Position numbers and translations under genes: made by a program | Part shown: positions 19,718 to 24,388 of the stretch, piece after piece | Position numbering within the stretch: position 1 is the stretch's first letter | How the letters are laid out: each line of letters opens with the position of its first letter | Notes under the pieces: generated by a model | Database searches by the model: none | Told to the model about the DNA's origin: nothing | Seen by the model: the letters and a program-made list of their open reading frames with translations, nothing else | DNA from: Mycobacterium sp. | GTDB lineage: Bacteria > Actinomycetota > Actinomycetes > Mycobacteriales > Mycobacteriaceae | Assembly (NCBI GenBank): GCA_020438845.1 | Contig: JAGQTV010000046.1 | Coordinates: 1-64,000, forward strand | Direction of reading: 5' to 3' | DNA length: 64,000 nucleotides

Positions 19718-20032
19718 TCACCGAATCGGGGCGATCATCGCCTCGATGAGGTGCGGGCCTGGCTCGAGGTAGGCGCGGCGCAGTGCGTCGGCCAGACCGT
19801 CTGCTGTGCTCACCGCTCGGCGGCCTGGCACCGCAGCCGGTTCGCCGGCGATTCGGGCGTAGCCATCGGCTGCGCCGGTCGCCCCACCTTCGAACAATCC
19901 CACAACCCCGCGCATCTCCGGAACGTCGTCGAGAGCGCTGACGAAGTGCATTTCCGAGGTGCCGGGGTTCATGGGGCAGATGTCCACTCCAGCGGCAAGT
20001 AGGCTTCGGATCAGGGACTGAGAACCGTTCAC
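19718..20032 (-). pseudogene. Acetolactate-synthase-type (TPP enzyme) gene with large internal deletion
   Basis: A GTG at 20032 follows GGAGGAAACC. The 104-codon frame begins [18 protein letters not shown], then [16 protein letters not shown] and [19 protein letters not shown], the N-terminal PYR domain of the IlvB/IlvX-type thiamine-diphosphate enzymes. At about residue 73 the sequence jumps to [29 protein letters not shown], which matches the extreme C-terminus of the same family. About 400 residues, including the whole TPP-binding domain, are missing, though the frame is kept. The product cannot be an active enzyme. M. tuberculosis has the full-length family member ilvX (about 515 residues). 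Confidence 0.8.
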
Positions 20033-20266
20033 GGTTTCCTCCGTGGTGTAGGGAGATTCGCAGCGAACCCAGGCACGTGGCCCGCCCATGGGCGTCTGCC
20101 TCCGGGTGGGCAAAGCTATTACCCGTCCTTATGCTGTGACGGTTGTGGCGTCAGCCCACCACCGGTGCTGATTTTCGGGTAAACCACCCGATCGAGCGGG
20201 ACAATGCGAAGGCCAACTGACCCAGCCCGACACAACTGTCGTCGACGTCGATCCGTGGGAGTAGCA

Positions 20267-21532
20267 GTGACCGACAGCAGCCGCGTGCTGATCAAGAACG
20301 TGCAAATCTTCGACGGTCTGACCGACCATCTCGTAGCCGGGCACGTCCTCATCGAGGGGACCAAGGTCACGGCCGTCGACAGCTCCCCCATCTCTGAATC
20401 CGATTCAGCGGTCGTCATCGACGGCGCGGGGCGAGTTTTGATGCCCGGCATGATCGACGCCCACGCCCACTTGGTCGGGATGGCCAACACGATGGTGGAT
20501 CTGATGACGGCCTCCCAGACCCAGCTCGCCGCAGCCACCCTGGCTCGCGCCAAGGACACACTGTTGCGCGGGTTCACCACCGTCCGCGACGTGGCCGGAG
20601 ACACCGTGGGGATCAAAAAGGTGATCGACGCCGAACCCGCCCTCGGCCCGCGCATCTACCCCAGCCAGGCCGCGATCTCCCAAACTGCCGGACATGGCGA
20701 TTTCGGGTTCATCTACGAACGCCCAACCGCTCTGGGCGGCAATGAATCTCGCGGCGAAGCCATCGGCTTCATGCGAGTGGCCGACGGTCCCGACCGCGTC
20801 ACTGCTGCGGTCCGCGAACAACTCAAACTCGGCGCCTCTCAGATCAAACTGATGGCCGGCGGCGGGGTGGCGTCGCTCTACGACCCTCTCTCCTCGATCC
20901 AGTTCACTCCTGAAGAACTGCGGGCCGCGGTGCAGGCGGCTGCCGACTACGGAACTTACGTGGCCACCCACGTGTACAACGTGATAGGAATCCGCCGTGC
21001 CGTCGAGGCGGGCGTGAAGTGCATCGAGCACGGCCATCTCGCCGATGAGCCCACGGTTGCCCTGCTCGCCGAACGCGGGGTGTGGCTGTCGACCCAGCCA
21101 TTCGCCGAGCACGACCACGTTTTCCTCAACGCGGACAGCACAGCGAAGAACCACGAAGTGTGCGAGGGCACCGCGCGGGTGTATGGGTGGGCCAAACAGC
21201 ACGGGGTCAACCTGGGCTGGGGCACCGATTTACTCTTCCAGCCCGACAAGAATGAACTCCAGAGCGAGATGGTGGCCAGGCTCGGCGAGTACTTCAGCAA
21301 CGTCGAGGCCCTGAAAATGGTCACATCGGGCAACGCCGAACTGTTGCGCCTGGCCGGCGAGCGCGATCCCTACCGGTCGGCCCGACTGGGCCAGATCACC
21401 GCCGGGGCGTGGGCCGACGTGCTGGTGATCGACGGAGATCCCACTGCGGACCTTGGCGTCCTGTCTGACGCCGACTCGGGCATCGTCACGATCATCAAGG
21501 ACGGTGTGGTGGTCAAGAACACCCTCGGCTAA
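20267..21532 (+). CDS. Metal-dependent amidohydrolase (imidazolonepropionase/prolidase-like)
   Basis: 421 residues from the GTG at 20267, chosen because GGGAG lies 5 bases upstream. Amidohydrolase superfamily layout: small beta domain, then MPGMIDAHAHLVG with the HxH metal pair, a Lys in GASQIKLMAGGG that could be carbamylated, THVYN and IEHGHLAD giving two further His ligands, and GWGTDLLF with the metal Asp. C-terminal LGQITAGAWADVLVIDGDP is a family signature. The pattern is that of imidazolonepropionase-like and Xaa-Pro/Xaa-Arg dipeptidase-like members; the substrate is unknown. It is divergent from the deleted acetolactate-synthase-type gene. Confidence 0.9.
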   Translation: MTDSSRVLIKNVQIFDGLTDHLVAGHVLIEGTKVTAVDSSPISESDSAVVIDGAGRVLMPGMIDAHAHLVGMANTMVDLMTASQTQLAAATLARAKDTLLRGFTTVRDVAGDTVGIKKVIDAEPALGPRIYPSQAAISQTAGHGDFGFIYERPTALGGNESRGEAIGFMRVADGPDRVTAAVREQLKLGASQIKLMAGGGVASLYDPLSSIQFTPEELRAAVQAAADYGTYVATHVYNVIGIRRAVEAGVKCIEHGHLADEPTVALLAERGVWLSTQPFAEHDHVFLNADSTAKNHEVCEGTARVYGWAKQHGVNLGWGTDLLFQPDKNELQSEMVARLGEYFSNVEALKMVTSGNAELLRLAGERDPYRSARLGQITAGAWADVLVIDGDPTADLGVLSDADSGIVTIIKDGVVVKNTLG

Positions 21533-21594
21533 GGGCGGCTAAGGGTGTAATTGCACAGTCTTGACCGGATAACCTGATCCTGAATGCAGGTTTC

Positions 21595-21683
21595 CGCTGC
21601 GGGAGTCCGGGCAACCGGTCTGAGAAGGTGACATATGGCGTCGCCGACCGCATGACCGTCCGGGTAATGCCGGGCAGGGAGCG
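21595..21683 (+). ncRNA. TPP (thiamine pyrophosphate) riboswitch
   Basis: Conserved THI-element blocks appear in order. The 5' GCGGGAGTCC is followed by a CCGG-GCAA-CCGG hairpin. Next is the pyrimidine-sensing CTGAGA at 21620-21625, then a variable stem. The pyrophosphate-side block ACCGTCCGGGTAATGCCGG ends in CAGGGA. P1 can form from CGCT (21595-21598) and AGCG (21680-21683). The purine-rich AGGGAG at the 3' end is also the best ribosome binding site for the ATG at 21692, so ligand binding would block translation directly. Call made by eye from the consensus; a covariance search would settle it. Confidence 0.85.
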
Positions 21684-21691
21684 AATCGTTG

Positions 21692-22300
21692 ATGAGCGTG
21701 CTGTTCACACTGTGGGGTTACGACGTCACGGTGATCGAATTTCTCTCGGTGATCTTGGCCTTCATCGCCATCGGTCTGGGTATTAGGGGGACTCGTTGGA
21801 CCTGGCCCTTCTACTTCCTGTCCAGCCTGCTCTACGGCTGGCTGTTCTTGCAGGTCCATCTTTTCGCCTCGGCCGCCATGCAGCTGATCTTCATGGTCGC
21901 GGCGATCTGGGGCTGGTTCTCCTGGGGTGATGAAGGAGTCCGGGTGCCCGGACGGCTCACCGTCACCCAGCGTGCCGGTGGCGCTGCCGGGGTGCTGATC
22001 TTGTGGGCAATGGTGGCGCCCCTGCTCCGCAGCATTGGCGGGGCGGCCAGCTGGGGTGACGCCTTCATGGTGGTGGGGTCGCTTGCGGCTCAGCTTCTGA
22101 TGGTGCGGCAGAAGGTCGAGACCTGGCCGACTTGGGTCGCGGTGAACACCGTCGGCACCGTGCTCTACGCCACCCAGGGCCTGTATTTCACGTCCATGTT
22201 CTACGCGGTCTTGATAATCATGGCGGTGACCGGTTGGCGGGCATGGCAATCACGTGCCATAAGCCATCCGGCCGAGGCACCGGCGGCTGCCCATGGCTGA
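21692..22300 (+). CDS. PnuC-family transporter, probably thiamine (PnuT-like)
   Basis: 202 residues, a good PnuC length, with seven or so membrane helices. PnuC features: the aromatic WGWFSWG in helix 3, YGWLFLQVHLFASAAMQLIFM before it, and the C-terminal [35 protein letters not shown] arranged as in PnuC. These facilitators import a vitamin that is trapped by phosphorylation. PnuC proper takes nicotinamide riboside; PnuT takes thiamine. The TPP riboswitch immediately upstream argues for thiamine. A kinase gene overlaps the 3' end by 8 bases, matching the trap mechanism. Start: ATG at 21692, with TTG at 21689 as an alternative. Confidence 0.85.
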   Translation: MSVLFTLWGYDVTVIEFLSVILAFIAIGLGIRGTRWTWPFYFLSSLLYGWLFLQVHLFASAAMQLIFMVAAIWGWFSWGDEGVRVPGRLTVTQRAGGAAGVLILWAMVAPLLRSIGGAASWGDAFMVVGSLAAQLLMVRQKVETWPTWVAVNTVGTVLYATQGLYFTSMFYAVLIIMAVTGWRAWQSRAISHPAEAPAAAHG

Positions 22301-22853
22301 AGCGGCGCGCTCGGGCTTGATCTCGGTGGTGGGCGGCGAATCGACCGGGAAGTCCACCTTGGCCACCGCACTCGGAGCCCGCTTGCCAGCAGTTGTGGTT
22401 GCCGAAGTGCTCCGCACCTGGGTGGACCAGCACCACGGACGAGTCCCGCTGCCACACGAACAAGCGTCGGTAATGGCCACTCAACACGAATCCGAACTCG
22501 CTGCGCTACAGCAGGCGGATCGCGACGGATGCCCCTGGGTCATCTCCGACAGTGGTCCGCTCATGACGGCCGTCTACAGCCTGCAGTACTACGACGACGC
22601 CAGTCTGTTGCCGCTGGCTTTGGAATGGACGGTGAGCAGCCAGGCGGTGGTGTGGTGCCAGGACGACTTCCCTTGGCAGCCCGACCCGCAACGCGACGGC
22701 GCACACGCCCGGACCACCTCGCAGGAGATCCTCGCTGGAGTCTTTACTGATCACCCTTCTTTGCCGCTGCTGGTGGTCCAGGGCTCACTCGATGAGCGGC
22801 TGGCAACAGTGCTGAACCAGATCACCGAAGGAAACCTCGACCCGCTCGCTTAG
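22293..22853 (+). CDS. NadR-type P-loop kinase, probable vitamin-trapping kinase
   Basis: 186 residues. Walker [12 protein letters not shown] (12-22) opens a NadR ribosylnicotinamide-kinase-like AAA domain; [31 protein letters not shown] and [20 protein letters not shown] follow the NadR C-domain pattern (arginine/aspartate substrate region). The nucleotidyltransferase domain of full-length NadR is absent. The start overlaps the transporter stop by 8 bases, so both are one translational unit under the TPP riboswitch. The likely role is to phosphorylate the imported molecule, thiamine if the riboswitch is taken as the guide (inference); nicotinamide riboside kinase is the family default. Confidence 0.8.
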
Positions 22854-24304
22854 CCTCCGTTGCCGCGAAGAATCTCCGCCGCGCACCGCAAGCGGGTGTG
22901 CCCCGTTTCCTGCATGCAGATCCGCACCGGCGACTCGTCCTCCATCGGCGGAAGAGTGGCCGGCGAAGTGGTCAGTACCGGGTTGGGAATCAGGTCCTGA
23001 TGGGCCGACCACAAGTACCGATTGGTGTACTGCAACTGGGTGCAATACACGGTGGTGCCTTCAGGGGTGGTGCCGGTGGCACCGGGGTCGCTACACCGGG
23101 CTCCCACCACGACGGGTACGGCGGCGGTCTGGGCGGCGACGGTGCTGGTGGCCGTCGGGGTTGTCGTGCTGGTCGTCGTGACCGACGTAGTGGTCGGTGT
23201 GGCCGTCGTCGTGGTGGCCGCCCTGCTCGTTGTTTCGGTCGTGGAGTCATGTTGCTTCGCGCTCATGACGTCCTCACCCCGAAAGCGGCCCGCGACGAAG
23301 GCGACGGCAACCAGGAGAAGCAGCACCGCCAACACTGGGATCACCACTTTCGGCCGCAGCCATGACCCGCTCGCGGTCGATGCAGGCGCACCGCCGATCG
23401 GAGCCGTGTCGGCGGCCGGGGTCATCCGCGTTTCGTCGGGCCCGACGGGAAACTCACCGGACAGCGGCTTGGTGATGTGGTGGCTCAGGGCGCGGGCGAA
23501 ATCCACGCACCGCGCATATCGATCAGCGGGATCCTTCGCCATCGCCTTGCGCAGGGCTGGGTCGAGGTTCGCCAGCTCAGGGCGCCGGTCGGCCAGGCTG
23601 GGCGGTGCGGTGGTCAAGCGCTGGCTGATCACCACCGCAGGGTTGGAGTGCTGGAACGGAGGGGAACCTGTCAAAAGGTGATAGGCCGTCGCCGCGAGGG
23701 CGTACTGGTCGGCGCGCCCGTCCAGGTCGCGGCCCATCAACTGCTCGGGAGCGGCGTACAGAACCGTGCCCACCGTCATGTTTGTCTGCGTCAGACCGCT
23801 GGATTCGTTCTGCCAGCGGGCAATTCCGAAGTCGGCCAACATGATTCGCTGCTCTCCCGACTCCAGCCGGGAGAGCAGTATGTTGGCCGGCTTGACGTCG
23901 CGGTGCAGCAGTTGCCGTTGATGTGCATAGTCGAGCGCCTCGGCAACGGCGGTGACGATGTTGAGGACCTCACGTTGCGGCAGACCGTTCGGGTAACTGC
24001 CCAACAGCTTGGAGGCATCGGTTCCGTCGACGTAGTCCATCGCGATCCACAACTGGCCATCGACCTGGCCACGGTCGTGCACCGCGACGATGTTCGGATG
24101 CCACAAAGTGGCGGCAATGTCGGCCTCACGCTCGAAACGGGCGCGGTACTCGGGGTCGTTACTGACAGAGGCCGGCAATATCTTCAGTGCGTCACGGCGC
24201 GGTAGCCGCGGATGCTGGGCGAGGTACACCTCACCCATGCCCCCCGCGCCGAGCAACCGCAGGATGGTGTACCCGGCGAACGTCGTACCCTCAGCCAACG
24301 GCAT
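22850..24304 (-). CDS. Transmembrane Ser/Thr protein kinase (Pkn type)
   Basis: 484 residues from the ATG at 24304. Kinase domain 1-280: [13 protein letters not shown] glycine loop, invariant Lys41 in [18 protein letters not shown] (catalytic Asp near 138), LADFGIARW and a [13 protein letters not shown] activation segment end. Membrane helix about 322-345 ([19 protein letters not shown]). The extracellular part starts with a Thr-rich stalk and ends in a small domain with five cysteines (ARCSDPG, VYCTQLQ, RICMQET, LRCAAE). The layout recalls PknF/PknI/PknJ-type mycobacterial kinases; the ectodomain would sense an envelope signal. Ends 4 bases into the convergent NadR-type gene. Confidence 0.93.
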
Positions 24305-24388
24305 GGGAACGATCCTACAAATCGGACCGACCAGACGGTTCCGCACCGGCGGTGAGGCCGGGATCGGGGCGACGTGCCTGAGGCCTGA

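Follow-up and report, generated by a model that had tools for sequence, protein, structure and literature searches.

The TPP riboswitch (RF00059) is the closest described relative of the RNA element presented here. In the accessible portions of PMC3764141 and PMC7824784, U59, A80, G60, C77 and G78 are given as highly conserved, with G60, C77 and G78 binding the pyrophosphate or the metal ions attached to it and with the pyrimidine bound by the CUGAGA region. Likewise, the available part of PMC4112796 reports that switching of E. coli thiM requires the pyrophosphate group, and that canonical switches have an affinity for thiamine (50 µM) some 1000-fold lower than for TPP (50 nM). A compound of the thiamine pathway other than TPP is sensed by the HMP-PP (thiS motif) riboswitch, which is, in the accessible text of PMC6478431, a separate, small, terminator-embedded aptamer. 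At the level of operons, PnuT with a THI element before pnuC has already been proposed or found in acI actinobacteria (PMC5301498, in the part available), while in the Bacteroides pnuT-tnr3 pair a TPP-riboswitch-linked PnuT is followed by a thiamine-phosphorylating enzyme, termed thiamine pyrophosphorylase in the accessible text of PMC5613172. The main text of the RNA-regulon survey PMC3766115 contains no occurrence of PnuT, PnuC or NadR.

Here we describe a related unit in the window, a 64,000-nucleotide stretch of a Mycobacterium sp. genome (G000; 4.5 Mb, 99.8% complete). A THI-like aptamer of the TPP type (21589..21696, plus strand) precedes a pnuT-type transporter gene of the PnuC family (21692..22300, plus strand; 202 aa from ATG) and the gene of a stand-alone NadR-type, RNK-like P-loop kinase, a candidate thiamine kinase (22293..22853, plus strand; 186 aa). 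The two genes overlap by eight bases (22293-22300), and the compact riboswitch-transporter-kinase arrangement proposed in an earlier sequence-only reading is thus borne out. A TTG lies one codon 5' of the pnuT ATG at 21692. The unit is flanked upstream by an amidohydrolase gene (20204-21532) and downstream by a convergent Ser/Thr kinase gene (22850-24346, minus strand); a promoter scan of the locus gave no sigma-70-type match, and a terminator scan gave a single terminator-like site, within chance.

This layout recalls the Bacteroides pair, with a NadR-type kinase in the place of tnr3. It also recalls the THI-pnuT units of an order that we presume to be acI (acI-type hereafter), whose transporters are 45-51% identical to that of the window and whose elements share its remodelled P4/P5; unlike the window, however, none of the nine acI-type loci checked has an adjoining NadR-type kinase, element and PnuT being present in all nine. 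In our view the unit is probably an operon for thiamine salvage, made up of a THI-like RNA, PnuT and a thiamine-kinase candidate, with thiamine the presumptive substrate of both proteins. The aptamer, a newly described variant of the TPP aptamer, may no longer sense pyrophosphate and perhaps reads thiamine or TMP. Neither THI elements with a remodelled pyrophosphate sensor nor a thiamine kinase of the NadR family came up in the literature searched, with subscription papers mostly beyond reach, and the accessible part of PMC5301498 yielded no mention of a loop change in the acI elements. Natural, covarying TPP-type aptamers without the pyrophosphate site would be a chance to watch a riboswitch change what it reads, and the operon supplies a candidate for the thiamine kinase that is missing where bacteria possess ThiL but lack a thiamine pyrophosphokinase.

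A THI-like element with a remodelled P4/P5

The RF00059 covariance search, which the sequence-only reading had named as the check on its "TPP riboswitch", came out in two ways. A whole-window Rfam scan at gathering thresholds returned no TPP match, and a relaxed scan of the stretch matched 21589-21696 over all 105 model positions at 34.5 bits (E 1.8e-5, or 8.9e-5 over the whole genome; gathering score 54.3). The score falls short because a continuous helix stands in place of the internal pyrophosphate-sensing loop, and scans at the gathering score skip remodelled elements, since those scanned fall below it. The claim therefore holds for a THI-like element and fails for TPP identity, as the element is below gathering and the nucleotides to which pyrophosphate binding is ascribed are absent from it; the remodelled sensor had been missed. 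The same kind of element lies directly 5' of pnuC in a further 16 loci with PnuC proteins 63-79% identical to that of the window, and so the element is more than a chance match. Relatives that gave a match score 29.7 to 34.7 bits. At E 0.1, nine of 12 pnuT loci reach the threshold, and L007, L008 and L009 stay below it though their elements align; in a second scan all five pnuT loci matched, L030 being the same contig as L010.

The blocks pointed out in the sequence-only reading are present: CTGAGA at 21620-21625, GTAATGCC at 21664-21671 and AGGGAG at 21676-21681. P2 pairs GCGG (21599-21602) with CCGC (21648-21651), as pair counts also indicate, and encloses P3 and P3a (21599..21651, plus strand). 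The CUGAGA T-loop (21620..21625, plus strand), the pyrimidine-binding pocket according to the accessible portions of PMC3764141 and PMC7824784, is retained. By its sequence and spacing, AGGGAG (21676..21681, plus strand), ten bases before the ATG, is the likely ribosome binding site, placed within the 3' part of the aptamer as had been proposed. The P1 pairing claimed alongside it exists in the window, yet it is short (CGCU with AGCG) and poorly kept in relatives. The folding energy of the element is not special (z -0.22), and its core is near-invariant across 16 Mycobacterium-type and g138 sequences.

The departure from the canonical plan lies in P4/P5 (21656..21678, plus strand), which reads CC-GUCCGG-GUAAUG-CCGGGC-A-GG and in which base pairs replace the UGAU/CGUA internal loop. 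In the alignment, canonical ACC-UGAU-CCGG ... CCGG-CGUA-GGGA becomes ACC-GU-CCGG ... CCGG-GCA-GGGA in the window and its relatives. With neither CCUG nor CG after P5, the window lacks the sensor residues U59-A80, G60, C77 and G78, and the same double absence holds for 15 of 15 Mycobacterium-type elements. The altered residues are those listed as pyrophosphate or metal contacts in the parts of PMC3764141 and PMC7824784 available. Thus, the variant shares with the TPP riboswitch its P2/P3/P3a/P4/P5 plan, CUGAGA pocket, UAAUG loop (L5), GGGA and position before thiamine genes, and differs from it in having a continuous helix for a pyrophosphate sensor. The L037 element is intermediate between the two loop forms.

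A tally by fixed patterns counted 15 Mycobacterium-type, two f35 g138, four f35 g49 and 76 acI-type remodelled pnuT-linked elements, and the canonical loop (5' CCUG and 3' CG together) occurs in none of these 97; partial remnants are CCUG in the four g49 elements and CG in three of the 76 acI-type ones. In the acI-type group P4 and P5 form one hairpin, most often CCAGUUCG-GUAAUG-CGAAUUGG, with an unbroken 8-pair helix in 35 of 76; the arms CCAGUUCG/CGAAUUGG are common to 32 of 92 remodelled elements. Among 27 distinct hairpins drawn from those 92 elements (f35 g49 and L094 hairpins excluded), the six inner pairs are 95.7% paired, and the helix holds 35 double-changed cells, against a shuffled mean of 8.4 with none of 500 shuffles as high, and at most 7 in slid controls. 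L5 is GUAAUG in 93 of the 97 and CUGAGA is present in all 97, a constancy that is partly built in because the script pattern used to find elements required CTGAG[AG] and a UAAU-like loop. The P3 arm has 12 bases or fewer in 72 of 76 acI-type elements, between 13 and 16 in the remaining 21 remodelled elements and 14 to 16 in 77 of 92 non-pnuT elements (among the matches listed), so both arms are shortened in the acI-type group only, a further difference from RF00059. Pairing alone cannot separate the two forms, since the six-pair helix is also possible in two of 81 canonical non-pnuT elements, and five of its six pairs in eight of them. The remodelled element is a conserved, covarying group and more than one genome's slip.

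The transporter and the kinase

The transporter matches the Pnu family (PF04973) at 137.7 bits (cut-off 27.3), and PnuC (4qtn) is the sole match of its profile to solved structures. In a maximum-likelihood tree of 68 transporters, for which every second acI-type row was left out and which includes no experimentally tested PnuT or PnuC, 51 PnuT-group rows split from 17 NR-type PnuC rows with 100/100 support, and the transporter of the window falls in the PnuT group. Two of the 51, L097 and L133, lack a visible element, and that of L143 is cut by a contig end. Sites fixed differently in the two groups include W38, A70 and V138. The 14 other PnuC loci in the genus are 26-31% identical to the PnuC of the window, and none gives an Rfam match at E 0.1; a NadR-like kinase adjoins ten of them, and nine of these ten neighbours match the NadR model over both domains. 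The tree split, the THI-like elements and the lack of a full NadR partner argue for PnuT over an NR-type PnuC, as the sequence-only reading had suggested.

All 17 Mycobacterium-type and g138 loci combine element, pnuC and kinase, as do ten of ten f37 loci and seven of eight f35 loci, two of the latter being the g138 loci already counted; in the 17 loci, and likewise in f35 and f37, the kinase gene is directly 3' of pnuT. At L097 a PnuT-kinase pair has no THI-like element directly upstream. Within the genus, a close PnuC copy is found in seven of 118 genomes: G000 and six more, whose copies are 72-77% identical. Metagenome bins are the source of all 13 named loci with a relative, and seven of these are titled Mycobacterium, Mycobacteriaceae or Mycolicibacterium. 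L028 and L035 come from bins titled Bifidobacterium breve and carry a Mycobacterium-clade operon nonetheless, so these names look wrong. The window's genome has a second PnuC (L023; G000:C91:7527-8120), of the NR-type group and with no NadR-like kinase in the fetched stretch.

The kinase matches AAA_28 at 77.6 bits, with AAA_16 below its cut-off, and matches NadR TIGR01526 weakly (32.2 bits, cut-off 341.15) over profile positions 164-302 only. Against solved structures at E 0.01 its profile finds NadR entries only, with 1lw7 at E 1.2e-6, which places it with RNK-like domains. It is thus related by sequence profile to the ribosylnicotinamide kinase domain of NadR (1lw7, 8x7f, 9x6f), and unlike NadR it stands alone: neither an NMN adenylyltransferase domain nor a DNA-binding domain was found in its 186 residues by the Pfam and TIGR01526 searches. 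Compared with the NadR set (12 rows), the kinase has Q57, M91, Y95 and C122 where NadR has, or mostly has, F, A, W and T, and L40 and V44 are further sites fixed differently between the two kinase groups; E16, E38, D86, Y99, D131, R134 and G136 are common to both (residue numbers are those of the alignment script plus 7). In the NadR-type kinase domains themselves (12 rows; L011-L024, L089, L092), 11 of 12 have T at the expected P-loop lysine.

Across the class, 25 of 394 genomes have a match to the kinase profile, none of them in f28, and a search for viral relatives found none. Besides that of the window, 24 loci match the profile, of which five have PnuT and four a PnuC of the NR type; the fetched stretch of the other 15 contains no PnuC. 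An exclusive link between element and kinase is ruled out by these 15 and by the acI-type elements without the kinase. The 15 relatives are L070-L072, L074, L078-L087 and L090, and by eye some of them lie near a protein-kinase or PASTA-like gene.

Distribution of the remodelled form

The remodelled group is commonest here in the acI-type freshwater order, where 185 of 201 genomes have a match to the transporter profile, which in six cases reaches only E 8.4e-16 to 3.1e-26. Reading 78 acI-type loci gave the 76 elements, 75 of them in f28 and one (L118) in family f41. In f37, where PnuT was found in ten of 85 genomes, and in G500, all 11 pnuT-linked elements keep the canonical loop. Two of these canonical elements were scanned and exceed the RF00059 gathering score at 58.0 and 56.4 bits, and nine remodelled ones scanned alongside score 31.0 to 51.9. 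A single loss of the canonical loop is not borne out, as the tree sets canonical f37 and G500 between remodelled groups, and parsimony by eye would permit either a regain or three losses. The f35 g49 hairpins look like a separate origin. At L029:45-145 a long inverted repeat scores as MIR9657 (45.5 bits), under its gathering score.

Among the matches listed, 81 of 92 non-pnuT thiamine elements have the canonical loop, in a non-random sample of 29 loci besides that of the window, 59 hand-chosen places, two of G000 and two of G227. The 59 were taken among the matches listed, ranked by likeness to the variant model; genes at reference loci were named by tblastn with one or two reference proteins apiece, which left six of 59 nameless, and an NCBIfam check of the reference proteins placed ThiO, ThiD and ThiC above their cut-offs and CytX below its own. 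The 11 non-canonical elements among these matches precede cytX-like transporters in six cases, thiO in three and, in the genus of the window, thiC in two. In the six (L045, L046, L048, L051, L060, L066) P4/P5 is remodelled or altered, and the thiC-linked L229 and L231 have CCGG-CAA-GGGAG where the canonical form has CCGG-CGUA-GGGA. The thiO- and thiD-linked elements of G000 itself keep the canonical loop. L049 and L050 (genus g63) follow the hairpin plan of the window's element and precede thiO, which rules out a transporter-only rule; the form is therefore not limited to uptake genes, and these elements warn against linking it to transport alone.

Function of the operon and ligand of the aptamer

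Thiamine pyrophosphokinase (PF04263) was above cut-off in none of 30 genomes searched, with one weak partial match in G044, and a search of the window's genome did not find it; the same model is above cut-off in six of 14 control genomes. ThiL was matched in all 30 genomes, in 29 above cut-off (completeness is 90% or more and contamination 5% or less in 23 of the 30). Because no thiamine pyrophosphokinase is above cut-off and ThiL is in 30 of 30, imported thiamine would need a thiamine kinase before ThiL, and genomic context supports the NadR-type kinase of the operon as the best candidate for this thiamine-trapping role. We propose that PnuT would admit thiamine to the cell, that the stand-alone kinase would convert it to TMP and so trap the vitamin, and that ThiL would then make TPP from TMP. 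Since the aptamer contains the ribosome binding site AGGGAG, ligand should lower translation of both genes, presumably by hiding AGGGAG, as its position suggests. Two observations count against this reading: no PnuC lies near the kinase gene at 15 of the 24 other loci of the class, and the nine acI-type PnuT loci have no such kinase adjoining. Ordinary nicotinamide riboside salvage by PnuC and a ribosylnicotinamide kinase, with the TPP-like sequence due to chance or decay, is the default annotation of both protein families and agrees with NadR being the kinase's only solved-structure relatives by profile. We regard it as very unlikely: the transporter sits in the separate PnuT group, the kinase lacks the NMN adenylyltransferase part that nine of ten pnuC-adjoining NadR-like proteins of the genus have along with the kinase domain, certain sites are fixed differently between the two kinase groups, and the THI-like element is conserved.

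As for the ligand, thiamine or TMP is our first choice, albeit a tentative one: the variant aptamer might recognise the vitamin by its pyrimidine end and have no need of a pyrophosphate. A thiamine sensor would need further adaptation, because canonical switches bind thiamine so much more weakly. The main rival keeps the same salvage operon and supposes that TPP remains the ligand of the aptamer, its pyrophosphate being held by another arrangement of P4/P5 and metal ions. To our mind this is a serious contender, not far from an even call, as L5 and CUGAGA are among the parts kept, related f37 and G500 operons retain a canonical aptamer before the same genes, the remodelled form also precedes the normally TPP-controlled thiO (L049, L050) and cytX-like genes (L045, L046, L048), and CG persists at the 3' position in the three acI-type elements. 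Against this, the pyrophosphate contacts, as described in the accessible literature, are absent or free to vary as long as they are paired, and the unbroken helix of the 35 acI-type elements has no loop or bulge to hold pyrophosphate. A decaying riboswitch that binds nothing any more would account for the low Rfam score, weak P1 and ordinary fold energy, but it is most improbable given the compensatory changes in the new helix, CUGAGA in all 97 elements (the pattern itself asking for CTGAG[AG]) and the near-invariant core of the 16 Mycobacterium-type and g138 sequences. Returning to thiamine or TMP as ligand, it is possible, though we would not call it probable, that a widespread actinobacterial group derived from the TPP aptamer gave up pyrophosphate recognition and senses one of these compounds itself, and that in Mycobacterium and relatives it controls PnuT and a new NadR-family thiamine kinase.

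Elsewhere in the window, a short ORF at 19718-20113 (minus strand) has an N-terminal TPP_enzyme_N domain (PF02776) and runs, by eye, into an apparent C-terminal tail of a TPP enzyme; it is perhaps an internally shortened gene.
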